A DNA stretch of 64,000 nucleotides from Blastomonas sp. SL216 (GCA_026625625.1 CP113055.1:1800501-1864500), one strand, 5' to 3'. Counted from the first letter of the stretch, positions 486 through 22,818 are shown. Program-made: numbers and translations. Notes: a model not told the origin generated them from the sequence alone.

Positions 486-943
486 GGATGGTCTCCGCGA
501 CGGCCGGCGGGCGAACCTCTCGCCGCGCTTCATGCCGTCACCCCGCCCATTCCCCCTCTCGCTCCGATCCTTGCGCCGTAGACAGCCGCCGGCTCGCCGA
601 GTGTGGCTATCGCCTGGCGCCGCCGCAGGCTGGGGACCTTCGGGTCAGGCAAGAGGATGAGACAAGACCGTCTGTCCGCGCGCTGCCCCTGAAATAGAAC
701 CGGAAGCGGTTGCAATTGCGCTGATGCGAGTCTTTCGCAACTGGGCAGACGATGCTATGGTGCCCGCCGGTCGCTACCGGGAAGAACCAGGCCAGAAGAG
801 CTGCCGGCATCCCGATGGCAAGCGCGCAATCGCGAGCATTTCAGCCGTTCGGCGATCCCGGACAGGAACCGGACATCGTCGTTTCAAAGGGGTGGCATGC
901 AGGGTCGACGGGTCGGAAACGCGCCTGCTGCCGATGTTTGTAC
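486..943. other. Intergenic region between ardC-like gene and luxR
   Basis: No convincing gene is seen here; the open frames on both strands lack recognisable domains. The region must contain the divergent promoters of the ArdC-like gene and luxR. It carries a 25-bp element at 693-717 that recurs upstream of the lasso precursor. If luxR starts at the ATG at 815 rather than at 944, part of this stretch is coding. Confidence 0.5.
693..717 (+). promoter_or_regulatory. Putative operator, copy 1 (upstream of luxR)
   Basis: The sequence is AATAGAACCG, four variable bases, CGGTT, one base, CAATT. The centre (698-711) is an inverted repeat AACCG-N4-CGGTT. The same pattern, 20 of 25 bases identical including the flanks, occurs on the opposite strand at 13515-13539 upstream of the lasso precursor. 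Two copies with matching flanks, each oriented toward a transcript of the same locus, suggest binding by a common regulator. Candidates are the local LuxR or GntR proteins; nothing in the sequence tells which. Confidence 0.5.
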
Positions 944-1696
944 GTGAACCAATGGAATGTGACACAGGATCTGTCGCAGGAAATCGCCTGCGCGAACGAT
1001 GAAGCAGCGCTCTTTGCCGCTCTCGCCAAGGCCACCGCGACGATGCGCTTCGACCATTTTGCGCTTGCCTATGACCGAAGGGGTCTCGCCGATCCGGGGA
1101 GCCTCCTCGTCCACAATTATCCCGAAGGCTGGGCCACGGTCTATAACGGGTTCGATCTGGGCAAGGCAGACCCCGTTCGCCGGGCAGGCGAACGCGCACT
1201 GACAGGGTTCAGCTGGCACGAGCTCGAACTCTATGTCCCGCTCACCAAGGGCGACAGGCAGATGCTGGCTGTCGGCCGCGAGAACGGTCTGGTCGATGGC
1301 TATACCGTCCCGAGGCATCTGGTCGGCGAGGCCAGCGGCACCTGCACCTTCGTCATCCGGCATGAGCGCGACTTGCCGCCCGATATGCGCCACTGCGCCG
1401 AGATCGTCGGCGCAACAGCGCTTGCAGCTGCCCGCCGGATCAGCGGGGCAAGGCCGGTCGATCCAAGGCCGGTATTGAGCGAACGCCAGCGCGAATGCGT
1501 GCTCTGGTCGGCGCGGGGCAAGACCGCCGGCGAGATCGCTGCAATCCTCGGCATCAGCGAGGAAACGGTCACGCAACATCTCAAGAATGCCCGCGAGCGC
1601 TACGATGTCCATGGCCGCCAGATGCTGGTCCTGTGCGCGATGTTCGATGGCGTGATCGGCTTCTCGGATGTCTTCGACTGGTGGACGCCCGCCTGA
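944..1696 (+). CDS. luxR: LuxR-family acyl-homoserine-lactone-responsive regulator
   Basis: The product has about 250 residues in the two-domain quorum-sensing layout. The N-terminal half has the autoinducer-binding signature YPEGWATVYNGFDLGKADPV, with the usual Trp, Tyr, Asp-Pro pattern. The C-terminal third (from about residue 178) is a LuxR/FixJ helix-turn-helix, LSERQRECVLWSARGKTAGE followed by IAAILGISEETVTQHLKNA. It would bind the signal made by the LuxI homologue 145 bases downstream and control DNA targets. The start is uncertain: the frame is open further upstream, with an ATG at 815 and GTG codons at 944 and 959. The homologous part begins near 960, and no start has a strong ribosome site. 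Confidence 0.85.
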   Translation: MNQWNVTQDLSQEIACANDEAALFAALAKATATMRFDHFALAYDRRGLADPGSLLVHNYPEGWATVYNGFDLGKADPVRRAGERALTGFSWHELELYVPLTKGDRQMLAVGRENGLVDGYTVPRHLVGEASGTCTFVIRHERDLPPDMRHCAEIVGATALAAARRISGARPVDPRPVLSERQRECVLWSARGKTAGEIAAILGISEETVTQHLKNARERYDVHGRQMLVLCAMFDGVIGFSDVFDWWTPA

Positions 1697-1717: not shown

Positions 1718-1841
1718 GCCATCGCCGAGCGCTTCCGTCCGGGCAAGGCGCTGCACGGCTGCCCCCTCCCCTGAACTGGGTATACCGAAAGCAGCAGCGC
1801 AATGGTCTTTTCCAGGGGCACAAGCCCTTGAAGGAACGATC

Positions 1842-2465
1842 ATGATTCCAGCACCGATCAGCGTGAAACCCCGCATCCAGGAAGAGGCGATGCGCGCCAT
1901 GTTCGCAGCGCGAAAGCAGGTGTTCGTCGACCTGCTCGGCTGGGACCTTCCCGTTCTGGAAGATCGGTTCGAGATCGACCAGTTCGATACGGCCGCGGCG
2001 CGCTACCTGATCCTGCTGGGACCCGAAGGCGAGCACCGGGCCTCGGCCAGGCTTCTGCCCACGACAGCACCCCATATCCTCGGCACGCTCTATCCGCATC
2101 TGTGCGATGGAGAGGTCCCGCGCGATTCATCCATTATGGAGATATCGCGCTTCTGCCTCGACAGGAACCAGGATGCCGCATCGCGCCTGTCATCGCGCAA
2201 CCAGCTGGTGACCGCGCTGGTGGATCACGCGCTGTGCGAGGGCATCGGCCTCTATACCGGCGTGGCCGAGCTCGGCTGGCTGGCGCAAATTCTTCGCTTC
2301 GGCTGGGATTGCCAGCCGCTGGGAGAGCCTGCGGGCGACAGGGGCTCGAAGATCGGAGCCCTCGCCATCACGATCGATGCCAGCACGCGGCCGAGCCTCG
2401 AGCGCACTGGTATCTACACGCCGCTTGCGCTCCAGCTCGTCGAAGGCCGGGAGCAGGTCGCATGA
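1842..2465 (+). CDS. luxI: Acyl-homoserine-lactone synthase
   Basis: This 207-residue LuxI-family enzyme would make an N-acyl-homoserine lactone from S-adenosylmethionine and an acyl carrier, in the cytoplasm. The invariant Arg24, Phe28 and Trp34 are present in RKQVFVDLLGW at the canonical positions. The acidic residues follow (Glu44, Asp46, Asp49 region), then the RLLPT and MEISRF motifs. AAGGAA at 1831-1836 sets the ATG at 1842. The stop overlaps the start of the dioxygenase gene by four bases (ATGA), so the two are translationally coupled. The acyl chain cannot be predicted from sequence. Confidence 0.92.
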   Translation: MIPAPISVKPRIQEEAMRAMFAARKQVFVDLLGWDLPVLEDRFEIDQFDTAAARYLILLGPEGEHRASARLLPTTAPHILGTLYPHLCDGEVPRDSSIMEISRFCLDRNQDAASRLSSRNQLVTALVDHALCEGIGLYTGVAELGWLAQILRFGWDCQPLGEPAGDRGSKIGALAITIDASTRPSLERTGIYTPLALQLVEGREQVA

Positions 2466-3328
2466 GCGCGATATCCTCGGCTGAGCTGGCCGCAGCCCTG
2501 CTGGAAAGTGGCTATTGCATCGTGCCCGACCTGGTCGAGCGCGACTCGATAGAGGCGCTGGACCAGGACCTCCATCCGGTCTTTGCCGCGACACCTTTTG
2601 GTCAGGGAGATTTCTACGGATACCGGACCAAGCGTTTCGGCGCCCTGCTGAAGCGCTCGGCCCAGGCTCAAAGGCTGGCGCTCGAGACGACCATCCTGGG
2701 CGCCGTGAAAGCGATCCTGGGCGATGCAAGCGACACCATCCAGATCAATGTCGCCCAGGCCATCGAGATTCATCCAGGCGAAGTGCGCCAGTTCCCCCAT
2801 CGCGATCACGACATGTGGAACGGCGCCAAGGGCGCGCACGAATATCTGGTGAATGTGATCTGGCCATTGACGCCCTTCCGCGCCGAGAATGGTGCAACGC
2901 AAATCTATCCTCACAGCCATGGTGCTGAGGGCATGGCGAGGCAGGATCCGGGCAAGCCGGTGATCGCACAATGCGATCCGGGATCGGCAATCTGCTTCCT
3001 CGGCTCCACCGCCCATGGCGCGGGTGCCAACCTCACAAATAGCGTCAGGCGCGCGGTGGTCATCGGCTACAGCCTTGGCTGGCTCAAACCCTATGAAAAT
3101 CTCTGGCTGGCCTATCCTCCTGCAATTGCCCGAACGTTCCCACCCGAGCTTGCAGCGCTGGTGGGATATGTCCAGCACCGCCCCAATCTCGGGAATTTCG
3201 AGGGCCAGTGCCCGTCGGTGCTGTTACGGGATGATATTGACGAGCATCTTGCAGCCATGGATGCGCTGCGGCCCGACCAGGCCGCGATGGTAGCAGAGTT
3301 TGCAGCGCAGGAGCGCCTCGCGCGGTGA
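2462..3328 (+). CDS. phyH: Phytanoyl-CoA dioxygenase (PhyH) family Fe(II)/2-oxoglutarate oxygenase
   Basis: The 288-residue product has the iron-binding facial triad of the family: H113-x-D115 in FPHRDHDMW and distal His185 in GSTAHGAGANLT. Arg196/197 are placed to bind 2-oxoglutarate. Members hydroxylate fatty acyl chains, amino acids or peptides. The gene is wedged between luxI and gntR with 4-base overlaps on both sides, so it is part of the quorum-sensing transcript. Possible substrates are the acyl chain of the signal, a precursor of it, or the lasso peptide made nearby; none is proven. Linkage of phyH to luxI in sphingomonads is recalled from the literature but was not checked. Confidence 0.85.
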   Translation: MSAISSAELAAALLESGYCIVPDLVERDSIEALDQDLHPVFAATPFGQGDFYGYRTKRFGALLKRSAQAQRLALETTILGAVKAILGDASDTIQINVAQAIEIHPGEVRQFPHRDHDMWNGAKGAHEYLVNVIWPLTPFRAENGATQIYPHSHGAEGMARQDPGKPVIAQCDPGSAICFLGSTAHGAGANLTNSVRRAVVIGYSLGWLKPYENLWLAYPPAIARTFPPELAALVGYVQHRPNLGNFEGQCPSVLLRDDIDEHLAAMDALRPDQAAMVAEFAAQERLAR

Positions 3329-3918
3329 GCCCTGCCCATGTGATCGAGCCGACCTATGACGCGATACGGCGGCGACTGATGCATGGACACTGGCCGCCTG
3401 GGACCCGGCTTGAGGCCGCCCGTATCGCCGATCAGCTGCATGTGAGCGTCACCCCGGTACGCGACAGCCTGTACCGGCTGACGGGTGAGCGCATGGTCGA
3501 TTTCGAACATGGCGAGGGCTTTCATGTCCCGCGCATCACCGAGAGCCGCCTTCGCGCGATGCTGGAGCTGCATCTGGTCCTGGTTCTGACGGGCCTTGCA
3601 ACGCGCACCAGGGCCCCGGCGGACCCGCCGGCTGGCGATGCAGACGGCTCGGACGGGTTCGCCAGCCTGTTCCGGCATATCGCGACGCGTTCGGGAAATG
3701 CAGAGCTCGCCTCTGCCATTGCTGGGCTCGGTGACAGGCTTCATCCGTTTCGGGCATTCGACGCTTCGATATTCGATGACATCGACGAAGAATTGGAAAA
3801 GCTCCAAGCGGCTGTAGCAAAAGACGCTCCGCGCGAAGAGATCACGCCATTGCTGATGCATTATCATCATCGCCGCGTAGTGGAGGCCGATGCCTATGTG
3901 CGACTCAGGTCCGTCTGA
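3325..3918 (+). CDS. GntR-family transcriptional regulator (FCD-type)
   Basis: This 197-residue protein starts at a GTG that overlaps the phyH stop (GTGA). The first 70 residues form a winged helix with the GntR pattern: YDAIRRRLMHGHWPPGTRLE, then ARIADQLHVSVTPVRDSLYRL. The rest is a short alpha-helical ligand domain resembling FCD, including YHHRRVVEAD at the end. It is the third gene of the luxI/phyH/gntR set and could repress its own operon or the fecI/fecR genes beyond. GntR genes are recalled, with some uncertainty, as companions of isopeptidase-type lasso clusters. Confidence 0.85.
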   Translation: MSPAHVIEPTYDAIRRRLMHGHWPPGTRLEAARIADQLHVSVTPVRDSLYRLTGERMVDFEHGEGFHVPRITESRLRAMLELHLVLVLTGLATRTRAPADPPAGDADGSDGFASLFRHIATRSGNAELASAIAGLGDRLHPFRAFDASIFDDIDEELEKLQAAVAKDAPREEITPLLMHYHHRRVVEADAYVRLRSV

Positions 3919-4192: not shown

Positions 4193-4801
4193 GTGTCTTC
4201 GCCGAAATGGAAAAGCGCTTCTCCCGGCCGTCACCCTTTCTCGGTGTCATCGGCCTGCCATGTCCATCCCGATGACCGGCCGCATGCGCCCGAGCCTGCT
4301 GCGCGCGCTGCTTCCGATCTCGACACGGCCTTTCGCGAGCATGGCAGGGCGCTGCTTCAGTTCCTGCGCCGCAAGGCCGGAGCCGACGAAGCACCCGATC
4401 TGGTGCAGGAAGTTTTCGTGCGGGCAGCAGGCAGTGCGCAGCGCGACAGCCTGGTCAATCCCGGGGGATTTCTTCGGCGTATCGCAAGCAACCTCCTCAT
4501 CGACAGGTCGCGCAAGGAAGAACGCCGGGGTGGAGGCGATCTCTCGTTCTGCGAGGAGCGCGATTGTGCCAGCCCTGCCCAGCAGACATGGGATATCGAG
4601 GCGGCCGATCTGATGGGGCTTTACGAGGCTGCGCTGGGCACCATGTCACCCAGGTCGCGGGAAGTGTTTCTGATGCACCGGGTGGACGAGCTCAGCTATC
4701 GCGAGATACACGAGAAGCTGGGGATCAGCGTGGCGACAGTGGAATATCACATGATGAAGGCGCTCGCGCATATCGCCCAGGCAGTGGGTTACGAGCGATG
4801 A
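4193..4801 (+). CDS. FecI-like ECF sigma factor
   Basis: The frame encodes up to 202 residues. Region 2 is seen in FREHGRALLQFLRRKAG, DEAPDLVQEVFVRAA and FLRRIASNLLIDRSRKEER. Region 4 is seen in MSPRSREVFLMHRVDELSY with REIHEKLGISVATVEYHMMK. FecI-type sigmas direct RNA polymerase to outer-membrane receptor genes when the receptor reports ligand through FecR. The downstream fecR and TonB receptor genes fit exactly. The start is unclear: only GTG codons (4193, 4244) or rarer starts are available before the conserved part, and none has a clear ribosome site. The end overlaps fecR (ATGA). Confidence 0.85.
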   Translation: MSSPKWKSASPGRHPFSVSSACHVHPDDRPHAPEPAARAASDLDTAFREHGRALLQFLRRKAGADEAPDLVQEVFVRAAGSAQRDSLVNPGGFLRRIASNLLIDRSRKEERRGGGDLSFCEERDCASPAQQTWDIEAADLMGLYEAALGTMSPRSREVFLMHRVDELSYREIHEKLGISVATVEYHMMKALAHIAQAVGYER

Positions 4802-5826
4802 TGTCCGGCGATAGCGACGGTGTGGCAGACGAAGCCGCCATGGGCTGGCTGGTCAGAATGCGGGGCGAGGATCGGGACCGGCTTCGCGGCGACTTCGAGG
4901 CCTGGCTCGAAGCATCGGCTGGTAATCGCGCAGCCTATCAGCGGGCAGAACGACTGCTGGGACAGTCGGCGATACTGAAGGGCTCAGCGCGTTACGGCGA
5001 AAATCGTGCGCGAGCGCCTCTGCGCCCTGCAGCAGATGCCAGCCGCTCGCCAGGAGCAAGGCGATGGCTGATGGCCGGAGCGATGGCGGCAGCTGCAGCG
5101 ATGCTGTTTGTAGCCTTCAACGCTGGCGGCGCGACGCTGTCGGGCCCCTATCGAAACAATCCGATGGCAGCCTGGGCCGCCGAGCCCCTTGTCACCCGGC
5201 ATGGCGAGATCCGGCGCTTCCATCTGGATGACGGATCGGTGGCAACGCTCGATACCGATACCCGGCTCGAAGTGGCCATGACGCCCGAGGCGAGACTGGT
5301 CCGCCTGGTGAAAGGCAGGGCCCGGCTGCAGATTGCGAGGGATGCAAGACCATTCAGAATCGAGGCGGGCAAAGGTGTCGTGACAACACGCGAGGCATCG
5401 CTCGATATCGAAATGGCTTTGGACGGCAGGATCGCTGTCACGCTGGCGAGCGGTGCTGCCGGCATTGAACCCGCCGCCGGGCGCTGGAATGCTGCAGGAC
5501 CGCTGCAGCTCGTTGCCAGCCAGTCCATCGCGTACCGCGCGGATGATCAGGCCCTGGCCATCGAACGGCAAGCGGCATCAAGAGCGATGACCGACTGGCC
5601 CTCCGGTTGGGCAGAATATCGTGTCGTCCGGGTCGACCAGCTGGTTGCACAGGCAAATCGCTATGCCGCCGTCCCGATCGTCATCGCCGACCCCCGGATT
5701 GGCGGGCTCGAGGTCTCGGGCCGGTTCAGGATCAGCGAGACCGAGAGCTTCATCGACAGGCTTTCGCGATTGCTCGGTCTTCAGGCCGAGCGCAGGCCGG
5801 ACAGCATCCGTTTGCGCTCCCGATAA
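4798..5826 (+). CDS. FecR-like anti-sigma / sigma regulator
   Basis: The 342-residue protein begins with a DUF4880-type cytoplasmic domain (AAMGWLVRMRGEDRDRLRGD and ASAGNRAAYQRAERLLG). One transmembrane helix follows (WLMAGAMAAAAAMLFVAF). The periplasmic FecR domain comes next (RHGEIRRFHLDDGSVATLDT onward), then a C-terminal DUF4974/STN-like domain with ANRYAAVPIVIADPRIGG. It would relay ligand occupancy of the downstream receptor, whose STN domain it should contact, to the FecI-like sigma. The ATG at 4798 overlaps the sigma stop codon; a second ATG at 4801 is equally possible. Confidence 0.87.
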   Translation: MMSGDSDGVADEAAMGWLVRMRGEDRDRLRGDFEAWLEASAGNRAAYQRAERLLGQSAILKGSARYGENRARAPLRPAADASRSPGARRWLMAGAMAAAAAMLFVAFNAGGATLSGPYRNNPMAAWAAEPLVTRHGEIRRFHLDDGSVATLDTDTRLEVAMTPEARLVRLVKGRARLQIARDARPFRIEAGKGVVTTREASLDIEMALDGRIAVTLASGAAGIEPAAGRWNAAGPLQLVASQSIAYRADDQALAIERQAASRAMTDWPSGWAEYRVVRVDQLVAQANRYAAVPIVIADPRIGGLEVSGRFRISETESFIDRLSRLLGLQAERRPDSIRLRSR

Positions 5827-5931
5827 TTTTTTGAGTGCCTGACTAAGGTCGAACCATCGCCAGCGTCATTCCCCCTCCAGAGGCCGCATGTCTTCCCGAC
5901 AAGCTGCCCGAAACCCGTGGGGAGATGAATG

Positions 5932-8472
5932 ATGTCAGGGAAATACCGGTTCGTGATGGCACTGATGGCGGGCGCCGCGCTGGGATGTCTGCCGGCCGCA
6001 GCGCAGGCCCAGCAGCAGGAGAAGATCGCCTTCGATCTTCCGGCGCAGGATCTGGGCGATGCGCTTCGCAGCGTTGCTGCACGCGGCGCGATCGAGCTCT
6101 ATGCCTCGGCAGACGATCTCGAGGGGCTGAAGGCCCCCCGGCTCGAAGGCAGCCTGACGACGCGCGAGGCCATCGAAGCGCTGCTGCGCGGAACAGGACT
6201 TGTGGCGCGGTTCGAGCCGGGAGCCGTGACGATACGCCGCGCCGATGGCAGGCGCGCCAGCGAAGGCGATGCGCAGTCCGATCCGATCGTCGTTACCGGC
6301 TCGCGCATCCGGGGAGCGCCGTCGGCGGTTCCGCTGACGACCGTAACCAGCGAGGACATCCGCAATGGCGGCCTGAACGATCTCGGCGAGGTCGCGCGCA
6401 GCCTGCCGCAGAATTTCGGCGGCGGCCAGAACCCGGGTATCGGCAACACGCAGGGTGCCGCCAACGAGAACGTCAATGTCAACGGAGCATCGACATTCAA
6501 CCTTCGCGGTATCGGCCCCAATGCCACGCTGACGCTGATCAACGGCAACCGCTTTGCGTTCAGCGGGGTCAATTCGGTGATCGACGTGAGCGCCATTCCC
6601 GTGGCTGCGGTCGACCGGGTCGAGGTGATCGCCGACGGGGCATCGGCGATCTATGGTGCGGATGCGGTGGCCGGCGTGGTCAACATCATCCTCAAGCGGA
6701 GTTACGAGGGCGTCTCGACAACGGCACGCGTCGGCGGATCGACCGAAGGCGGCAATTTCCAGCAGCAGTTCAGCGCTCTTGCCGGAACCAGCTGGTCAAC
6801 GGGCGGGATTCTGGCGGCTTATGATGCGAGCACCAATACGTCGATCCAGGCCAATGCTCGCAGCTATACCGCCTCGACAAATCCTGCCTCCACGATCTTG
6901 CCGGATCTGCGTCGCCACGCCATCCTTCTCAGTGCGCATCAGGCACTGGGCGCAGGTATCGAGCTCAGTGCCGATATGATCTACAAGACCGGCAGGCAGC
7001 GGCTCGCATCAGCGTTCACCTTGAGCCAACCGGTCACACAATCCGGTATCCTCACGCGAACGGAGTTCGAGACCTTCGGCATTGCTCCGAAGGTTACCGT
7101 AGATCTGTCGAACGACTGGACCCTCGAAATCCTGGGTTTCTACGGCACCGACACAACTGACGGGTTGTCCCGGATCTTCGCTGGCGGGGCACAGACCGGC
7201 ACAGGTGTCCGCATATACGACAACCGCAATTTTTCGATCGAAGCCGGTCTGCAGGGTGCTCTGTTCGAACTTCCAGCAGGATCGGTCCGGATCGCAGCCG
7301 GCGCAGGCTACCGGTCCAGTGTGTTCGACGCCCGGCTGGACGCCCGAACCATCGAGAGGGTTCGGAAAAACTATTTCGCCTATGGTGAGCTGTTCGTGCC
7401 TATCACCAGCCCGGAACAGGGGATTGCCCTTGCGCACCGCACATCGCTGACTGGGGCGCTGCGCTATGAGGACAATTCGGATTCGGGCGATGTCGTGACG
7501 CCAAAGCTGGGCTTCGTCTACGAACCCATTGCCGAGCTCACCTTCGGCGTCTCCTGGGGCAAGTCGTTCAAGCTGCCGACCCTTCTTCAGCAATATTCAG
7601 GCTATGCAGCCGTTCTCGCCCCTGTCGGTGGTTTCGGCCAGGGTTTTCCGCCGGGTTCGACAGTGGCAGTAGCACTGGGTGCCAGCGAAATACTTGAACC
7701 CGAGCGGTCCGAAAACTGGACGTTCAGCGCGACAGCCAGACCTGCTGCCAACCTGGAACTTTCGGCGAGCTATTTTCACATCGACTACACGGATCGGGTC
7801 GCTCCCCCCCTGGTGTCGTCTGCAGGCGTTCTGAACAATCCGGTCTTCGCTGACCTCGTCACTTTCAATCCCTCTGCTGCCCTTCTGGACGCTCTGTTCA
7901 GCCGGGCGAATGGCGGACTGCAGAATGCTACCGGGGCCCCCTATAACCCTTCGCGCGTCGTCGCCCTTCTCGATGCGCGTTCGCGCAACATCGCCCAGCA
8001 GACCTATAGCGGGATCGATGTTTCAGCGCGCTACGACCTTTCGTTCGGAGATGACCGGCAGCTATCGCTCAGCCTGGGCGGAACCTGTATGGATAGCACT
8101 CAGCGCCTGCTGCCGGGCCTTCCTGTTACCGAGCTTGCCGGGACCATTTTCTTTCCGCCGCATCTGCGCGCCCGGGCCGGCGCGACGTTCACGACGAAGC
8201 GGATCTCGTTGTCTTCATTTGTGAACTATACCGGCGGTGTCACCGACAACCGACGACCGACACAACCGCAACTGTCCTCGTTCACTGCGCTCGACCTGAC
8301 CGCGCGACTGAGCCTGGGTCACGGCACTGAAATTGCTTTCAATGCCCTCAACATCTTCAATGAGAAGCCCGAGCCGATTTTCACCGCAGCCGCGTTCGAC
8401 ACTCCCTTCGATACAACCAATTACTCGGCTGTCGGGCGTTTCCTTGGCCTGACGATCCGTCATGACTGGTAA
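5932..8472 (+). CDS. TonB-dependent transducer-receptor with STN domain (probable lasso peptide importer)
   Basis: About 846 residues. A signal peptide ends near AAAQAQ. Residues about 30-105 form an STN signalling domain (FDLPAQDLGDALRSVAARGA onward). A plug follows with VEVIADGASAIYGADAVAGV, then a 22-strand barrel ending in an aromatic residue. The STN domain marks a transducer that signals through the adjacent FecR/FecI. In known isopeptidase-type lasso clusters such a receptor lies with the isopeptidase and is thought to take up the mature lasso peptide. GGGGAG precedes tandem ATGs at 5929 and 5932; 5932 has the better spacing. The last 11 bases overlap the isopeptidase gene, implying coupling. 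Confidence 0.88.
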   Translation: MSGKYRFVMALMAGAALGCLPAAAQAQQQEKIAFDLPAQDLGDALRSVAARGAIELYASADDLEGLKAPRLEGSLTTREAIEALLRGTGLVARFEPGAVTIRRADGRRASEGDAQSDPIVVTGSRIRGAPSAVPLTTVTSEDIRNGGLNDLGEVARSLPQNFGGGQNPGIGNTQGAANENVNVNGASTFNLRGIGPNATLTLINGNRFAFSGVNSVIDVSAIPVAAVDRVEVIADGASAIYGADAVAGVVNIILKRSYEGVSTTARVGGSTEGGNFQQQFSALAGTSWSTGGILAAYDASTNTSIQANARSYTASTNPASTILPDLRRHAILLSAHQALGAGIELSADMIYKTGRQRLASAFTLSQPVTQSGILTRTEFETFGIAPKVTVDLSNDWTLEILGFYGTDTTDGLSRIFAGGAQTGTGVRIYDNRNFSIEAGLQGALFELPAGSVRIAAGAGYRSSVFDARLDARTIERVRKNYFAYGELFVPITSPEQGIALAHRTSLTGALRYEDNSDSGDVVTPKLGFVYEPIAELTFGVSWGKSFKLPTLLQQYSGYAAVLAPVGGFGQGFPPGSTVAVALGASEILEPERSENWTFSATARPAANLELSASYFHIDYTDRVAPPLVSSAGVLNNPVFADLVTFNPSAALLDALFSRANGGLQNATGAPYNPSRVVALLDARSRNIAQQTYSGIDVSARYDLSFGDDRQLSLSLGGTCMDSTQRLLPGLPVTELAGTIFFPPHLRARAGATFTTKRISLSSFVNYTGGVTDNRRPTQPQLSSFTALDLTARLSLGHGTEIAFNALNIFNEKPEPIFTAAAFDTPFDTTNYSAVGRFLGLTIRHDW

Positions 8473-10690
8473 GGCGCTCGCGAAACGCACGCAGGCTGCC
8501 GGCTGGCCGATCCTGGCCAGCCTGCTCCTTGGCGGGCAGCTGACTGAAGCAAAGGCGGAGACGCCTGAGCGTCGGTGGACACTGGAAGATATCGTGACGG
8601 CTCCGAAGGTCACCTCTCTGGCACTGTCCTCCGATGGATCTGAACTGGCATATATCCAGAGGGCGGGAGATATCGAGAAGAACCAGACAATGCATTTCGT
8701 CTATCGAGTGGATCTGTCCACTGGCGAGCGAACGGAAATGGCGCGCGCCGGCGCGGCCACGCAGCTCGAAGCCATGAAGGGAGAGCGAGGCTGGCATGTG
8801 TTGCTCGATATAGGTGAGGGGCAACAGCTTTACCGGGTCGACTCAGGCTCAAAACCTCAGCTCGTCCTCGCGAGCGAGGCAAGCGTAATGATAGGAGAGA
8901 CAGAGGGCGGCCTTTTTGCAGTCTCTTTCATCGCGCCGCATCGTGTCGGCGTGTTGGCCTATGACTGGTCTCCGGATCGCAAATGGTTGTGGTACGCGGC
9001 CCTAAAACCTGGGTTCGCCAAGCCCAAAGTACAGTTCGACAACGAAGTCGTCCTGCAGAAGCAAAGGCGTCGTGCGCCCGTCAGTGCCGTTGTCGAACTC
9101 CGACTGCGGTCTGCTTCCGGCGAAGATGTTCTCGTCGCTACCCGACCGGCGAGCGATCGTCTGGCATTCTATTATGCCGGAACCGTAAGCTGGGCCGACG
9201 ATGGATTGCGATATTACGTTGAAACCACGTCGGGCACGCAAAGTGATAGATCCGAAGCGTTCGACCTGAAGTTCGGTTCGACGACAAGCATCCCGGCAGG
9301 CGAGCAACAGGGCCTTTCTTCTGTCGACTTCATGAAGGGGCCTCGGGGAGGTCTGCTATCCACCGACGGATATGGTTCAGAATTGGAACTGGTCGAAACG
9401 CGAGCCGACGGCACAAGACATAGCTATGGCAGGTATCCGTATTTTCTGGGGCACCCAATGGCTGCAGGAAGCTGGCGATCAGCGGATGGCAGGCGCACAG
9501 TCCTCGGCATGCGCACTACCACGCATCCACGATATGGACTGGCGCTTGTCTCGTCCCAAGGTGCGCGCTCAATCGTGACACAGGGAAGCCTCACACAATG
9601 CGATTTTCTAGAGAACCTTGATTGGGGCATCTGTGTCGAGGAATCGATGACCCAGCCTCCTCGGTTGGTCAAAGTCGAACCTGCAAAAGGCAAAGTCTCA
9701 CAAATTATACCGCTCTCCGCGCGACACGAAGCAATAACTCCGTTGCGGGTTACATCCCACCATTGGAATAACCGTTCGGGTCACGCTGCTACAGGATTCA
9801 TAGTCTGGCCGCGTGACTATGATCCAGGGCGCCGGTATCCTTCGATACTCGTCACGCACGGCCACGACGCCGACGAGCGGTTTGCCGATCAGGACCTGCA
9901 ATGGGAGTATCCGATTCAACTCTGGGCAGAGCGGGGCTATGTCGTCATTCTCGCTAATGAGCCATCTCCGCGGCAAAGCCCGGAACTCATGGCCGCCTTT
10001 GCCCAGTGGGTGTCTGGCACAGGACCGCTTTCACCGATCGAAGTTCAAAGTCGCGCCTGGCTAAACGTGGTTGAGACTTTCGAGGATGTTGTAAGCCAGC
10101 TCGTGCTTAAAGGCATCGTCGACAGCACGCGCGTTGGCATTGCGGGCTATAGCCGTGGGTCGCAGATCACAAATGTCGCCATTACGCAATCAAGAGCGTT
10201 CAAGGTCGCATCCAGCGGCGATGGCCATTTTCTGGAACCCGCCATCTATCCCATATCCATCAGATCCTATGGTGCCATTTTTGGCGGCCCGCCTTCGGGG
10301 CGGTTTCTGGAAAACTATCTTCGGATATCGCCATCGCTGCGTGCCGGTGTTGTATGCGCACCGGTCCTTCAGCAGGTCGCAGGCCCACATGCCGGTGCAA
10401 TCGACTTCCATGTGGCGTTGCGCTCGACGAGCGTCCCTGCCCAGATCAGCATGTACCCGGGCGAGACAACGGCAGCCGAAGAAACTCACCTGTTTCATAT
10501 ACCTTCAAATCGGCTGCTCGCGATGCGCGAGAACCTTGCATGGTTCGATTTCTGGTTGCTGGGCAAACGTGACCCCGACGCGGCCTTTTCCGACCGTGTT
10601 GATCGCTGGGCCGCGATGGCAGATGCGTTCAGCAAGAACTGTTCGGTCAACGCCGATGGAAACCAGGACTTTGCGCCGCCGGTCAGATAG
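8462..10690 (+). CDS. Lasso peptide isopeptidase (prolyl-oligopeptidase-like, AtxE2 type)
   Basis: This 742-residue protein has a signal-like N-terminus, a beta-propeller-like first part and an S9 alpha/beta-hydrolase second part. The nucleophile is Ser564 in GYSRGS. Asp648 (AIDFHVAL) and His676 (EETHLFH) have spacings (84 and 112 residues) almost the same as those recalled for AtxE2. That enzyme cuts the isopeptide bond that closes the lasso ring and so linearises the peptide. The gene overlaps the receptor gene by 11 bases, which fits import followed by cleavage. Its 3' end overlaps the 3' end of the convergent cyclase gene by 8 bases. A generic S9 peptidase is the alternative, but the context argues against it. 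Confidence 0.9.
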   Translation: MTGKALAKRTQAAGWPILASLLLGGQLTEAKAETPERRWTLEDIVTAPKVTSLALSSDGSELAYIQRAGDIEKNQTMHFVYRVDLSTGERTEMARAGAATQLEAMKGERGWHVLLDIGEGQQLYRVDSGSKPQLVLASEASVMIGETEGGLFAVSFIAPHRVGVLAYDWSPDRKWLWYAALKPGFAKPKVQFDNEVVLQKQRRRAPVSAVVELRLRSASGEDVLVATRPASDRLAFYYAGTVSWADDGLRYYVETTSGTQSDRSEAFDLKFGSTTSIPAGEQQGLSSVDFMKGPRGGLLSTDGYGSELELVETRADGTRHSYGRYPYFLGHPMAAGSWRSADGRRTVLGMRTTTHPRYGLALVSSQGARSIVTQGSLTQCDFLENLDWGICVEESMTQPPRLVKVEPAKGKVSQIIPLSARHEAITPLRVTSHHWNNRSGHAATGFIVWPRDYDPGRRYPSILVTHGHDADERFADQDLQWEYPIQLWAERGYVVILANEPSPRQSPELMAAFAQWVSGTGPLSPIEVQSRAWLNVVETFEDVVSQLVLKGIVDSTRVGIAGYSRGSQITNVAITQSRAFKVASSGDGHFLEPAIYPISIRSYGAIFGGPPSGRFLENYLRISPSLRAGVVCAPVLQQVAGPHAGAIDFHVALRSTSVPAQISMYPGETTAAEETHLFHIPSNRLLAMRENLAWFDFWLLGKRDPDAAFSDRVDRWAAMADAFSKNCSVNADGNQDFAPPVR

Positions 10691-12407
10691 CATCGCTCCA
10701 CCAGCGAGCCCATGCCTCTGCCGCGCAAAGGTCCAGGATACGCCTCGCCTTATCCGAGCCGCTGGCGGTCACAGGATTGATCCCCTCGAAAATCGAGAGG
10801 TCAAGCAAGCCTGCCCGTGCGAGCAGTCCATCCCGCAGCATCTGTTCTGCTTTCTGGCGATTTGCCTGGAATATTTCGGCCATGAAGCCTGAAGGGCCGC
10901 CCTTTGAAGTTCGCCTCAGAAGCTGATGGGGAACGATGCTGCGAACGGCTTCGCGTGCAACTGCACGATTGATTCCATCATGGACCCAGTGCCAGGTCGG
11001 AATGCCCAGGCACAGCTCAATGATCGGCTGGGAAAGCAACGGAGCAATATGGACGGGAGACTCTGCCCTTGGATAAAGCTCGATGCCACGATGCGCGCGT
11101 ATGATCTGCTTCACGTGCCCGATCTTGCCCGGGAGTGCGCCCTCGGTATCTTCGAGCCAGGGGTGAAGCGGCCGGAAGGGCCCGAGCGCTTCGATAAATG
11201 AGGCTGATAGGCCTGACTTGTTACGATAGATGCGGGGCGGACCACCAACGCGCCTGTATATACCCAAAGCGTGGCGCAGGATCGTCATGCCGTCGGCGCC
11301 CGTCAGAAGACTGAGATCGCGCAGCGTGTTCATAACTCCCGATCGGGCCCCTTGCGTCAGGAACCGGTCGACGAACGGGGCCGCCGTGGCGAGGCTGCAG
11401 AACACATTGTCGCCGCCGTTTCCGGAAAAATAGGCGTCGATATGATGCTCGCTGGAAAAGCCGGAATGGATCGCGGCGATACCCTGCATGAAATAAGGGG
11501 CGTTTGGCCATGCGTGGTGCGGGGCGACAGGTTTCTCGATATCGATGGACGACAGGCTGTAATGCCGTTCGTGCAGAGGACGTCCGAGCGCTGAAGCAAG
11601 AACAGAGGCGTAGCTTCGCTCATCACCGCCCGCACCACTGCTGACGATGTTGAGGCAATGAAGCTCAAGCGCCTGCGAATGTGTTGCGCAGGCGACGATG
11701 GATGAATCGAGTCCGCCTGAAACGCCCAGGACGGCCGACTTGAAGCACGATGCCCAGGAGCCCACACAATCCAGCAATACCCTGCGCAGCCTCGATGCAT
11801 TGGTCTCGAACGAGAGCAGGCGCTCGGGAGTCGTCCACGGCCATGGAGACCACCACTGACTTATCGTATGACCCTCTGGAGTGGAGGTGATGCACTCACC
11901 TGGAAGCAGCTCCATGACCCCTGAGATGCAGGTTTCGCGGCCTATCGTATCGACGCCTATCAGCAGTCTTCCGATTTCGATGAAATTGACAGCTTGAGGA
12001 CCACGCTGGGCAAGCTGCGTGACATCACTGGCCAATGCCAGAGAGCCGGCTTCCGATCGGTAATAGCAGGGCATTTGCGCTGATGGATCACGCAGTACCG
12101 AGACACTGCCATCCACTCCCGTCAAAACCGCAACATATGCTCCCCAGAAGTCACCCAGCAGCGAGCGTCCACCGCTTGCCCGGATCGCCAGAACTTCATC
12201 GGCAGCAAATTCGACGATGCGAACGCTCGGGTCTGTCCGTGAGAAAAGATGACCGATGACACAGCCATGACTGCCTATCGGGATCACCGGAGTGTCACTC
12301 CACACGCGTCCGGTGCCGGCCCCGAAGGAAGAAACGGCATTGCCGCCAGCGGCGCTTCGCCCGACGTCCTGCCGGTGCGAAATTTCTATGCGATAATGCC
12401 CTGCCAT
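10683..12407 (-). CDS. Lasso peptide cyclase, asparagine-synthetase-like (C protein)
   Basis: The 574-residue protein resembles class B asparagine synthetase. The N-terminal half looks like a glutaminase fold without a start-proximal Cys (it begins MAGHYRIEIS). The C-terminal half has the ATP pyrophosphatase loop SGGLDSS at residues 230-236 and a later YFSGNGGDNVF. Lasso cyclases adenylate the side chain of Asp or Glu in the core and join it to the amino group of Gly1. The start was placed at 12407 because it overlaps the stop of the peptidase gene by one base (TGATG). An upstream extension to 12488 would lie inside that gene. It is the last gene of the A-B-C operon. Confidence 0.92.
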   Translation of the reverse strand: MAGHYRIEISHRQDVGRSAAGGNAVSSFGAGTGRVWSDTPVIPIGSHGCVIGHLFSRTDPSVRIVEFAADEVLAIRASGGRSLLGDFWGAYVAVLTGVDGSVSVLRDPSAQMPCYYRSEAGSLALASDVTQLAQRGPQAVNFIEIGRLLIGVDTIGRETCISGVMELLPGECITSTPEGHTISQWWSPWPWTTPERLLSFETNASRLRRVLLDCVGSWASCFKSAVLGVSGGLDSSIVACATHSQALELHCLNIVSSGAGGDERSYASVLASALGRPLHERHYSLSSIDIEKPVAPHHAWPNAPYFMQGIAAIHSGFSSEHHIDAYFSGNGGDNVFCSLATAAPFVDRFLTQGARSGVMNTLRDLSLLTGADGMTILRHALGIYRRVGGPPRIYRNKSGLSASFIEALGPFRPLHPWLEDTEGALPGKIGHVKQIIRAHRGIELYPRAESPVHIAPLLSQPIIELCLGIPTWHWVHDGINRAVAREAVRSIVPHQLLRRTSKGGPSGFMAEIFQANRQKAEQMLRDGLLARAGLLDLSIFEGINPVTASGSDKARRILDLCAAEAWARWWSDAI

Positions 12408-13048
12408 CAAGCCACCAGAATAGGTTTGTAAGCTTCGACGAGCTCGAGCGAATCTGTCAGAACAGTCGAGCCCAGCTGAACCCAGCAATGGGCGGAAAAT
12501 GGCAGCGCAACGCCGATGACAAGGTCAGCATGGCAACCCTGGCGAGCAAGCATGCGTTTCATGGCGACACCTCGCGGCAGGCACTGATCAGTTCCGGAGA
12601 TCAGATAGCGAGCCTGTTGGAATGCAGATGCGACGTGCAGCGCATGCTGATGCTCATTCGGGATGTGGCGCTCGCTGACTGGTTGTATTTCGCCGAGAAT
12701 TCGTGCGATCGGACGGCGCCTGATAGCGCGCCTTGCTGCGATCTGCGCAAACGCGGCCCTGGCCGTGCACACAAATCGCGCCGATGGCAGGTCATTGTCC
12801 AGTGCACTGAATTCAGGGGCAGGAAGGTCTGGCAAATTGTTGGACGGCTGATGCACACCCGGGCAGATTATTCGCTTTGAAATGAGCCAGGCCAGATCGG
12901 CTTCATCTGCCCTGCCCTCACGAAACTTCCGAAATCGGACCTCGGCGTCCTGACTGAGCAGAAAATAGCGATCACGAGCGAGATCCAGAAATATTGAATG
13001 CATCCCGATGGTGCAGCAACGCATATCCGGAGAGAGCCTGTATTCCAT
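12407..13048 (-). CDS. Lasso leader peptidase with RRE-like N-terminal domain (B protein)
   Basis: 213 residues. The first ~75 residues resemble the PqqD-like recognition element that binds leader peptides (SIFLDLARDRYFLLSQ). The second half is a transglutaminase-like cysteine protease: Cys156 in DQCLPRG, His187 in AHCWVQ and Asp199 in VLTDS. The spacing matches the McjB triad. It removes the leader so that the core N-terminus can be cyclised. The ATG at 13048 was chosen over a TTG at 13111, because a perfect hairpin at 13072-13099 would otherwise lie within the coding region and family homology begins at MEYRLS. The stop is coupled to the cyclase start. Confidence 0.9.
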   Translation of the reverse strand: MEYRLSPDMRCCTIGMHSIFLDLARDRYFLLSQDAEVRFRKFREGRADEADLAWLISKRIICPGVHQPSNNLPDLPAPEFSALDNDLPSARFVCTARAAFAQIAARRAIRRRPIARILGEIQPVSERHIPNEHQHALHVASAFQQARYLISGTDQCLPRGVAMKRMLARQGCHADLVIGVALPFSAHCWVQLGSTVLTDSLELVEAYKPILVA

Positions 13049-13071
13049 AATGAACTGCCCGAGACCAGCAA

Positions 13072-13099
13072 TGGCGTGCAGCCTTGAGGCTGCACGCCA
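13072..13099 (-). terminator. Perfect hairpin between lasso precursor and peptidase genes
   Basis: A 12-bp perfect stem TGGCGTGCAGCC/GGCTGCACGCCA with a 4-base loop begins 9 bases after the precursor stop. There is no U-run, so it is more likely an attenuator or an RNA-stabilising 3' structure than a full terminator. It would let the small precursor be made in excess over the enzymes. Similar hairpins are described after lasso precursor genes in proteobacteria. Confidence 0.7.
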
Positions 13100-13107
13100 A
13101 ATGCAGA

Positions 13108-13251
13108 TCAATCCTCGCGGTCAATTCCGCCGACGAAGATTTTCAGCCCGGGCTGGACGTCGTCGAGGCCGGCGATCGCCGAGCCGCGAGTTTCTTCCTG
13201 CACGGCGCCGAGGTCGATGACGTCGTCATTCTGGGTTTCAAATGCGTTCAT
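13108..13251 (-). CDS. Lasso peptide precursor (A protein)
   Basis: 47 residues: a 22-residue leader ending ...EETR and a predicted 25-residue core. Thr lies at position -2, as in nearly all lasso precursors. The core starts GSAIAGLDD, giving Gly1 with Asp8 or Asp9 as possible ring partners (8- or 9-residue ring; 9 is favoured by analogy with astexins and sphingopyxins). The tail is VQPGLKIFVGGIDRED. Its GGI-x-x-(E/D)-D ending resembles the sphingopyxin tail as recalled. The residue masses sum to about 2523.3 Da monoisotopic for the untrimmed lasso (2541.3 Da linear). The start is fixed by AAGGAA six bases before the ATG. The core has no Cys, Trp or Tyr, so plug residues must be Ile, Phe, Lys or Arg. 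Confidence 0.9.
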   Translation of the reverse strand: MNAFETQNDDVIDLGAVQEETRGSAIAGLDDVQPGLKIFVGGIDRED

Positions 13252-13272: not shown

Positions 13273-13349
13273 TGCGACCGGGATCGGTCGCAGGGAAAGG
13301 CTATGCTTGGGCTGCCATCGCCTCAATTTTATAATCCGAAAATAATCCG
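13273..13349 (-). promoter_or_regulatory. 5' UTR hairpin and direct repeats before the lasso precursor
   Basis: An 8-bp perfect stem (TGCGACCG/CGGTCGCA, loop GGAT) lies at 13273-13292, just before the precursor's ribosome site. Further upstream, ATAATCCG occurs twice at 13331-13338 and 13342-13349, exactly 11 bases apart. On the coding strand this reads CGGATTAT-TTT-CGGATTAT followed by an AT-rich TATAAA-like stretch. This suggests a promoter with a tandem regulator site followed by a structured leader. Confidence 0.45.
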
Positions 13350-13539: not shown

Positions 13540-13926
13540 CAAAGCCATCGAAGAAAAAAAAACCGAGCCCGCTTTGCACACGGTCGGCGCAAGCCGGGTC
13601 GCGGTCCACGGATAACGCCTGCCGCCAAGGCCATTCCAGCAGCGGGACTCTCCCATCCTTCCGGAACGACCGGACCCCAGTCCCTCCCGGCATCGCCTAT
13701 TGCTGCGATTGTCTTTGCGTCTCGCAGAGCAGCGAAAGGTCATCGCATGAGACGCAATGAGCAGAAAAATTCGAGCTACGAGATTCGTTCGTGCAGGTAC
13801 CCATAACGACTCCGTTACCGCCGCCCGTCCGAAAGCCCCGCCGAACGCTCGATTGACGTCCTGTCACACATGGTCATTCTCGTCGCAGGCAGGGGCAGAT
13901 CAAACCAATGGATGGAGACAATTGCC
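13540..13926. other. Non-coding stretch upstream of the lasso operon
   Basis: Open frames exist on both strands between about 13420 and 13806, but their translations are low in complexity, rich in Arg and Ser, and match no domain. A run of nine A residues lies near 13553. No gene is called. Confidence 0.4.
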
Positions 13927-14142
13927 ATGACATCCCAAAACCCCGACCGGTTCCTGAGACTCGCAGCCGTGCTCGATCGCACCGGGCTTTCGCGGGCAAC
14001 ACTGTATCGCAAGATCCACGCGGGAACCTTCCCGCAGCAGGTCAAGCTGGCGGAGCGATGCTGCGGCTGGAGAGAGTCGGCCGTGGAGCAATGGCTGATC
14101 AACCCGATGCACTACAGCGCGAGCGACGCACCGATACATTGA
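13927..14142 (+). CDS. AlpA-family helix-turn-helix regulator
   Basis: 71 residues with the AlpA/MerR-like signature: FLRLAAVLDRTGLSRATLYR, KIHAGTFPQQVKL, and GWRESAVEQWL. Such proteins are typical regulators of prophage and integrative-element excision genes. The ATG at 13927 is preceded by GGAG with 9-base spacing; the frame is open to 13870. With the ArdC-like gene at the left edge it frames the lasso and quorum-sensing locus with mobile-element genes. No integrase is seen nearby. Confidence 0.8.
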   Translation: MTSQNPDRFLRLAAVLDRTGLSRATLYRKIHAGTFPQQVKLAERCCGWRESAVEQWLINPMHYSASDAPIH

Positions 14143-21294: not shown

Positions 21295-22329
21295 TTACAC
21301 CACGACCACTGCCGGAGCTTTGTAGTCTTCCTTCCTGGTGAGCAGCGCCCACACCATGCGCGCCATCTTATTGGCGAGCGCGACCGAGACGAGCATGCGC
21401 GGTTTGCGCGCCAGCATGCTTTCCAGCCATGAGCCACGCGGTGCACCGCGCCTGTTGGCCTGCAGCACCACCGAGCTTGCGCCGATGATGAGCAGCCGCC
21501 TGATCGTCCGCTCGCCCATCTTGGTTATACCGCCAAGCCGTTGCTTGCCTCCGGTTGAGTGCTGTCGGGGTGCAAGCCCGAGCCAGGCCGCAAAATCGCG
21601 GCCTTTGCGGAAGGTCTCGATCGGCGGGGCCAGCGCGATGATGGCGGTCGCCACGATAGGACCGATCCCTGGGATGGTCATCAGCCGCCGGGCTGCTTCG
21701 TCTTCCTTGGCGCGCCGCGCGATCTCGCGGTCGAGCACAGCAACCTGCTTGTCGAGCTCGGCTAGCATGTCGATCATGAGCTTGAACATCGACTGTGCCG
21801 CCGCTGGTAAAGTGGAGGTCATCTCACCTTCTTCCAGGAGTTCGGTCAGCAACGTCATGTGCGCGGTGCCGCGTGGCGCGACCCAGCCATATTCCGCCAA
21901 GTGGCCTCGGATCGCGTTGATCAACTGGGTGCGTTGACGTACCACAAGGTCGCGCGTTCGGAACACAAGACCTGCGGCCTGCTGTTCCTCGCTCTTCACC
22001 GTCACGTAGCGCATGCCCGGGCGCTGTGCCGCCTCGCAGATTGCCTCCGCATCGATCGCATCGTTCTTGTTTCGCTTCACGAACGGCTTCACGTAGGCGG
22101 GCGGAATGAGCCGCACATCGTGCCCCATCGCCTTCAGCTGCCGCGCCCAATGATGCGCGCCCCCGCACGCTTCAAGTGCAACAGTGCACCCCGGCTGACT
22201 TGCAAAGAAGTCGAGCAGTTTGTTCCTGGTAAGCTTGCGACTGAAAACCATCGCACCGCGTTCATCGGCACCGTGCGCATGAAAAACGTTCTTGGCGATA
22301 TCCAGACCTATTGTGCTAACTTGCGACAC
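21295..22329 (-). mobile_element. IS110-family transposase 2
   Basis: 344 residues, intact. It has GLDIAKNVFHAHG, ALEACGGAHHWARQL and KRNKNDAIDAEAICEA in the DEDD domain. The C-terminal domain has IPGIGPIVATAIIALAPP, GRDFAAWLGLAPRQHSTGGK and GERTIRRLLIIGASS. It is related to but clearly distinct from transposase 1. The GTG at 22329 follows GGGAGG by five bases and is preferred to an ATG at 22374. It is oriented opposite to element 1, so the two bracket the SUKH gene. Confidence 0.88.
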
Positions 22330-22818
22330 GGACGCCTCCCTCAGTGGTGAATCAACACCTCCACTTTGGCACATAGATGCCGTCGGGGGGCGTCCACCCC
22401 ATCAGGTTTTGGCGTCCTGCACCGTGCAAGCGGACGCCGTGCAGTCCTAAGCTACAACGTCCGCAGTCCGCAAATCTCATCCGAAAGCTACCAGGCAGCT
22501 TCCGCCCCATTGCGGACGTTCAAATTGGCGTTCCGACAATCTGAAGCGGCCGTTTGCTCAGCGAGACCTGTCCCGATTCTCAATTTCCGCGCGGCCATGC
22601 CGCGAAAGAACAATCGTGAACGGGTTTGGGAAAGCCGAACCTTCTAAAGGCCTCAGGCGGATCGCCGAGTTCCCCTCCCCGCTAGCGGTTTGTTTGTGGA
22701 AACGGCCCGGCGGATATGTGATGTTTAAAAGCCCGGCTCAGAGACGATTTGGTCCCTGCTACACGCGATCCATCCCAACCGGGTCGCCCAGAGGAACTGG
22801 CTGTGTCTTGTCAGGCGC
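22330..22818. other. Flank of IS110 element 2; no gene
   Basis: About 490 bases. The part near the transposase must contain the upstream end of the element. The sequence from about 22440 to 22640 has the look of an intergenic repeat remnant (repeated GCGGACGTT-like words). No gene is supported. Confidence 0.4.

Follow-up and report, generated by a model that had tools for sequence, protein, structure and literature searches.

A sphingopyxin I-type lasso peptide cluster in Blastomonas sp. SL216 and its conserved linkage to quorum-sensing genes

Blastomonas sp. SL216 carries an intact lasso peptide cluster of the isopeptidase type: the genes for the precursor (A), the leader peptidase (B), the macrolactam cyclase (C) and the isopeptidase (E) are all open, and the catalytic residues are kept. 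The cluster itself is new but unremarkable among those of the sphingopyxin I kind; its conserved attachment to a quorum-sensing block, luxR-luxI-phyH-gntR, is the more interesting part. We consider it rather probable that the locus encodes a lasso peptide system of the sphingopyxin I type and that cell density controls it. The window analysed here comprises 64,000 nucleotides (CP113055.1:1800501-1864500), and its relevant features are collected in Table 1.

Table 1. Genes and sequence elements of the lasso peptide and quorum-sensing locus; positions are counted from the first letter of the window.
Feature	Position	Strand	Basis
LuxR-type AHL-responsive regulator	752..1696	+	PF03472 93 bits, PF00196 49 bits
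luxI promoter element, candidate LuxR site, TCCCCTGAACTGGGTATACC	1762..1791	+	conserved before luxI here and in five relatives
LuxI acyl-homoserine-lactone synthase	1842..2465	+	PF00765 68 bits; start read from sequence
PhyH-like Fe(II)/2-oxoglutarate dioxygenase	2462..3328	+	PF05721 84.8 bits
GntR-family regulator	3325..3918	+	PF00392 51.3 bits
FecI-type ECF sigma factor (exact start uncertain)	4193..4801	+	PF08281, PF04542
FecR-type anti-sigma factor	4798..5826	+	PF04773, PF16220
TonB-dependent receptor, plug and STN signalling domain	5929..8472	+	PF00593, PF07715, PF07660
Lasso peptide isopeptidase E, SpI-IsoP type	8462..10690	+	5jrk/5jrl 644 bits over 13-728
Macrolactam cyclase C, 574 aa, SGGLDSS	10683..12407	-	PF00733 78.9 bits
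B protein, 213 aa, Cys156/His187/Asp199	12407..13048	-	PF13471 78.7 bits, NF033537 77.1 bits
A-B stem-loop	13071..13100	-	14-pair consensus stem, 9 loci
Lasso precursor A, 47 aa	13108..13251	-	PF24178, NF033522, acidic core position 9 in relatives
5' UTR dyad, TGCGACCGATCCCGGTCGCA	13273..13292	-	immediately 5' of the ribosome-binding site of A
Candidate operator, AT-rich palindrome in the promoter of A, ATTATTTTCGGATTATAA	13329..13346	-	conserved at the same place in relatives

The lasso peptide cluster

The precursor consists of a 22-residue leader, MNAFETQNDDVIDLGAVQEETR, with Thr at position -2, and a 25-residue core, GSAIAGLDDVQPGLKIFVGGIDRED. It scores 39.3 bits with PF24178 (Pfam Subterisin, curated cut-off 27) and 33.2 bits with NF033522 (NCBIfam benenodin, curated cut-off 33), and therefore is not a small ORF arising by chance. 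The C-terminal part of B is a leader peptidase domain, and the N-terminal part is presumably the leader-binding domain; against the PDB, B gave matches at the chance level only. A TTG at 13111 was rejected as the start of B, as relatives have the A-B stem-loop at that place, and it is also disfavoured by the residue numbers of a preliminary description of this DNA, which follow from the ATG at 13048. The stop codon of B is overlapped by the ATG of C (TGATG). The scores of C are below the NCBIfam lasso cyclase cut-offs (55.9 vs. 525 bits for NF033535 and 73.9 vs. 300 bits for NF033561). What identifies a lasso cluster here is Thr at -2, Gly1 and Asp9 in A, the Cys-His-Asp set in B, and an asparagine-synthetase-like C. 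Neither a second precursor nor a second lasso B gene was found in the Blastomonas genome.

The isopeptidase gene converges on A, B, and C from the opposite strand. Its product carries a signal-like N-terminal stretch, and Ser564 lies within GYSRGS. In the alignment with the solved sphingopyxin I isopeptidase, Ser564 and His676 face Ser and His, and Asp648 faces Glu, so the catalytic acid differs between the two proteins; the full-length homology together with the Ser-His-Asp/Glu triad places E in the SpI-IsoP family. An orthologue of AtxE2 is ruled out, as E matches AtxE2 (5txc) with 77 bits only and reaches 164.6 bits with the AtxE2-family equivalog NF033523, for which the curated cut-off is 400. 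Homologues of E with 43-92% identity are present in 5 of 9 Blastomonas genomes and in 32 of 80 genomes of the genus of G294, which, judging by shared sequences, is probably Sphingopyxis (and is so called below), as well as in Hephaestia, Novosphingobium, and Sphingomonas records.

Upstream of E, the stop codon of fecI overlaps the start of fecR (ATGA), and the receptor gene runs 11 nt into E. The genes identified around the cluster include no ABC exporter or immunity gene; with fecI, fecR, and the TonB receptor present, the cluster has the composition of exporter-less lasso clusters. The relatives keep the synteny fecI-fecR-TonB receptor-E / C-B-A. Astexin-2/-3 with AtxE2 has the same general complement of genes (A, B, C, E, TonB-dependent receptor, FecR, FecI), and the isopeptidase mechanism is assumed to be shared. 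Genes for an S41 peptidase and an AraC protein located downstream were considered and dismissed as parts of the cluster, as they had no matches in 12 SpI-clade loci. In another genome (G335:C4:127187-148192), two isopeptidase genes of the SpI type are separated by about 10 kb; two luxI genes lie close to them, and the precursor region (L125) has two precursor-like ORFs.

The preliminary description had reported a four-gene cluster at 8462-13251 of the isopeptidase type and sphingopyxin class, with a 47-residue precursor having Thr at -2 and Gly1, the catalytic residues of B and E, the cyclase motif, and no exporter. All of this was borne out: the four genes are open at that place, the precursor exceeds both curated cut-offs, the numbering of B is correct with the start at ATG 13048, and the triad of E was verified by alignment to the solved enzyme. 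The extent of the locus has to be revised, as the functional neighbourhood reaches to about position 750 rather than 8462; the luxR-luxI-phyH-gntR module had gone unmentioned.

Core peptide and ring

We collected 30 distinct cores encoded beside SpI-type isopeptidase genes, that of sphingopyxin I included. Gly1 and Gly6 are invariant; all 30 have Asp or Glu at position 9, and 6 have an acid at position 8. Because of this pattern, the ring is highly likely to be formed between Gly1 and Asp9. Of the two partners proposed earlier, Asp9 thus stands, and Asp8 was rejected, an acid being found there in only 6 of the 30 relatives. The computed monoisotopic mass of the predicted full-length lasso is 2523.297 Da, matching the earlier figure of about 2523.3 Da. 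The precursor falls in the same alignment as that of sphingopyxin I, with Gly1, Gly6, and Asp9 common to both. At the same time, most core positions differ, and the Blastomonas core has 25 residues compared with 26.

As far as we have seen, this core is uncharacterised, so the earlier claim of a new core holds in this sense; still, Blastomonas sp. CACIA14H2, whose genome is public, has a copy with one substitution (Ile21 to Met). A search for core strings in the open-access literature yielded no match, but the sphingopyxin I core was likewise unmatched, which makes this a weak test. The core may be one more natural substrate for isopeptidases of the SpI-IsoP family, which has a solved structure, here with Asp replacing Glu in the triad. 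The core GIEPLGPVDEDQGEHYLFAGGITADD, encoded in L137 and L140, we take to be sphingopyxin I. Both loci have a second precursor-like ORF with Glu9 on the minus strand (at 3461 in L137, GIDPLGAVEEDTGERYIFFAGIAETD, and at 3288 in L140, GLEPVGPVEEDTGSRYIPFAGIGEYD), about 2.4-2.6 kb from the sphingopyxin I precursor.

The quorum-sensing block

The plus-strand order upstream of E is luxR, luxI, phyH, gntR, fecI, fecR, and the TonB receptor gene. Four-nucleotide overlaps join luxI to phyH (ATGA) and phyH to gntR, and the luxR-luxI-phyH-gntR genes look co-transcribed. PhyH is apparently intact, with FPHRDHD and the distal His in STAHGAG. An AHL synthase, its receptor, and phyH located 3' of luxI constitute a luxR-luxI-phyH module, with the gene order known from other sphingomonads (PMC3704786, PMC4288048, PMC5012321); in Novosphingobium subterraneum, a GntR gene also follows phyH (PMC5012321). 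Unlike these modules, the Blastomonas one is joined to a lasso cluster, and the word "lasso" is absent from the three papers.

The whole block is found at the same place in eight SpI-clade loci with a full flank (L033-L036, L038, L040, L041, and L043). In L039, phyH and gntR are present and the sequence ends short of luxI, and in L042, luxR-luxI-phyH is fused onto a truncated E. In Sphingopyxis, luxI is located upstream of 31 out of 43 SpI-type E genes, co-oriented in all 31 cases and mostly at a distance of 6.06-6.17 kb, with about 0.3 luxI-linked cases expected by chance. The same arrangement holds for sphingopyxin I itself: in two genomes with its precursor beside an SpI-type isopeptidase gene (G301 and G330), luxI lies about 6.07 kb upstream of the latter. 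The other 12 of the 43 genes, about a quarter, have no luxI nearby, some of them perhaps due to contig ends. Across 299 genomes of the family, at least 27 of 117 luxI genes have a PF13471 gene no more than 20 kb away, where about one would be expected, and among the matches listed, the 15 closest pairs (2.5-6 kb) are all co-oriented.

In three loci of the AtxE2 type (L044, L048, and L057), luxR-luxI-phyH is upstream of A, on the strand of A-B-C, and gntR adjoins A in two of the three. In most of the AtxE2-like loci inspected, gntR precedes A, whereas in Blastomonas it precedes fecI; gntR is hence found beside lasso clusters of both isopeptidase clades. The block accompanies lasso genes, yet at opposite ends in the SpI and AtxE2 cluster types. 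In one further genome (G359:C1:3296369-3299012, with L065 as the E part), luxI runs straight into a nearly complete isopeptidase gene, the matched stretches overlapping by about 5 nt, as if the segment from phyH to the receptor gene had been deleted; the L042 fusion is similar.

A GntR gene before lasso precursors is already known (PMC9266682). The adjacency of both kinds of genes has been seen as well, as antiSMASH "hserlactone/lassopeptide" regions in Qipengyuania and Sphingomonas; the available portions of these papers give a region label, with no analysis of order, orientation, spacing, or operator (PMC9318849, PMC9716278). We found no interpretation of the lasso/quorum-sensing linkage in the open-access literature, which the search covered, and the novelty of the link is uncertain.

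Promoter and RNA elements

The palindrome in the precursor promoter has the consensus ATTATAATCSGATTATAA and is located about 80-95 nt before the start codon of A. Its left arm is degenerate in the present species, with two mismatches. At up to two mismatches, it has a single match in the 3.86 Mb genome, the one in the A promoter. Among the 299 genomes of the family, there are 50 distinct sites, at least 11 of them at a lasso cluster (at least 10 with a PF13471 gene no more than 1 kb away, and one, in G294, at the expected distance from E), where well under one would be expected by chance. It thus recurs at lasso precursors in other genera. In the AtxE2-type locus L044, the palindrome lies between gntR and A, and among 15 more distant isopeptidase loci it occurs in only one. 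One genome, G237, has the palindrome at a lasso cluster with no luxI detected, and therefore GntR is favoured over LuxR as the palindrome binder.

The motif of the candidate LuxR site was recovered in the luxI promoter of the held-out locus L044 as the top match of that locus. A search for the same motif in the A and fecI promoters gave no match. Direct control of the lasso genes by LuxR is therefore unsupported, and any such control would be indirect or act via other sites.

The arms of the 5' UTR dyad, TGCGA...TCGCA, are present in all 10 aligned upstream regions of precursors, one of them with a single end mismatch; the dyad may form a hairpin in the RNA or serve as an operator. The strong stem-loop between A and B has two-sided compensatory changes at 8 of its 14 pairs across the nine loci. 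As the output of astexin-1 has been raised by removing a hairpin (PMC7549694), this is an element of a known kind.

Proposed function and alternatives

The biological role of isopeptidase-type lasso peptides has been described as still enigmatic (PMC9266682), and linkage to AHL quorum sensing provides a testable clue to it. In the proposed system, B would take off the leader, and C would close the Gly1-Asp9 ring round the threaded tail. The peptide would then exit the cell and be re-imported by the TonB-dependent receptor, whose STN domain would signal through FecR to FecI and so induce its own operon, while E would cut the isopeptide bond, freeing the linear peptide together with any cargo it had bound. 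The biosynthetic steps of B and C, isopeptide opening by E, and receptor-FecR-FecI signalling are known for the family (PMC9266682). LuxR with AHL would drive luxI-phyH-gntR, making expression dependent on AHL, and GntR would act on the palindrome in the precursor promoter. The data that this scheme draws on are gene content, intact catalytic residues, the ring position obtained by comparison, the conserved linkage, and the conserved palindrome; the enzymatic steps follow family knowledge, and uptake, cargo release, the direction of regulation, and GntR as the binder are our proposals.

From the conserved linkage, we infer quorum-sensing control of the lasso genes and, with it, density-controlled lasso production and uptake. 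More generally, we give an even chance to the idea that, in sphingomonads, lasso peptides of the isopeptidase type act as effectors of quorum sensing, with the block as an integral part that heads the import half in the SpI type or the biosynthetic half in the AtxE2 type, GntR and the palindrome making production and re-import density-dependent, and the peptide acting as a shared scavenger or a second signal. A quorum-sensing link may explain the silence of such clusters in the native host. It would also join two literatures, as GntR follows phyH in a quorum-sensing paper and precedes the precursor in lasso papers.

The same system for making, importing, and linearising the peptide could operate with the quorum-sensing block as a passive neighbour, retained through shared ancestry or island mobility and exerting no control. 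This fits with the occurrence of luxI-phyH in other gene contexts in sphingomonads (PMC3704786, PMC4288048), with the quarter of Sphingopyxis E genes that have no luxI nearby (12 of 43), and with the failure to find a LuxR-like site upstream of A. We nevertheless consider it unlikely, given that neither spacing nor orientation varies among 31 Sphingopyxis loci, and given the recurrence of the block, co-oriented, at the opposite cluster end in the AtxE2 clade, which hitch-hiking does not predict; moreover, gntR overlaps phyH here, yet directly precedes A in the other clade. The block might instead serve biosynthesis rather than regulation, with PhyH as a tailoring enzyme hydroxylating the lasso peptide. 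An apparently intact Fe(II)/2-oxoglutarate dioxygenase linked to both clades would suit this role, but in sphingomonads at large, phyH comes after luxI (PMC3704786, PMC5012321), and the signal or a lipid is therefore a more likely substrate for PhyH, making tailoring very improbable.

Two further alternatives concern the purpose of the peptide. Lasso peptides of the microcin J25 type are a general precedent for an antibacterial product, in which case the isopeptidase would provide self-protection. This is highly improbable here, as the genes identified around the cluster include neither an ABC exporter nor an immunity gene, and the known isopeptidase-type peptides are devoid of antimicrobial activity, except for astexin-1 (PMC9266682). 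A role in the use of a hydrophobic carbon source has been proposed for sphingocin, whose cluster resembles the present one in having a benenodin-family precursor, B, C, an isopeptidase, a TonB receptor, and no D gene. According to the available part of that paper, a transposon in the B gene abolished phenanthrene use (PMC11006600). The claim is based, in the same part, on a single insertion mutant, the core has 22 residues, the isopeptidase is related by the authors to AtxE2, i.e. to a different type, and quorum-sensing genes are unmentioned there (PMC11006600); such a role for the Blastomonas peptide is quite improbable.

Other genes in the window

An AlpA-type phage regulator gene is located near the cluster (13870-14142), and an IS110-family transposase gene is found at 21298-22374; these are hints of a mobile-island boundary. 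The segment 36890-49415 has the look of a catabolic island, with genes for an AMP-binding enzyme, a short-chain dehydrogenase, a TonB receptor, an aldehyde dehydrogenase, a hydrolase, a PQQ-type alcohol dehydrogenase with a cytochrome c domain, and a flavin monooxygenase in a row. A trimeric autotransporter adhesin of 2949 residues, comprising a YadA stalk and head repeats, is encoded at 26118-34967. Its regularly spaced repeats of about 831 bp give rise to a series of recurring ORFs on the opposite strand, seen at 28-31 kb.
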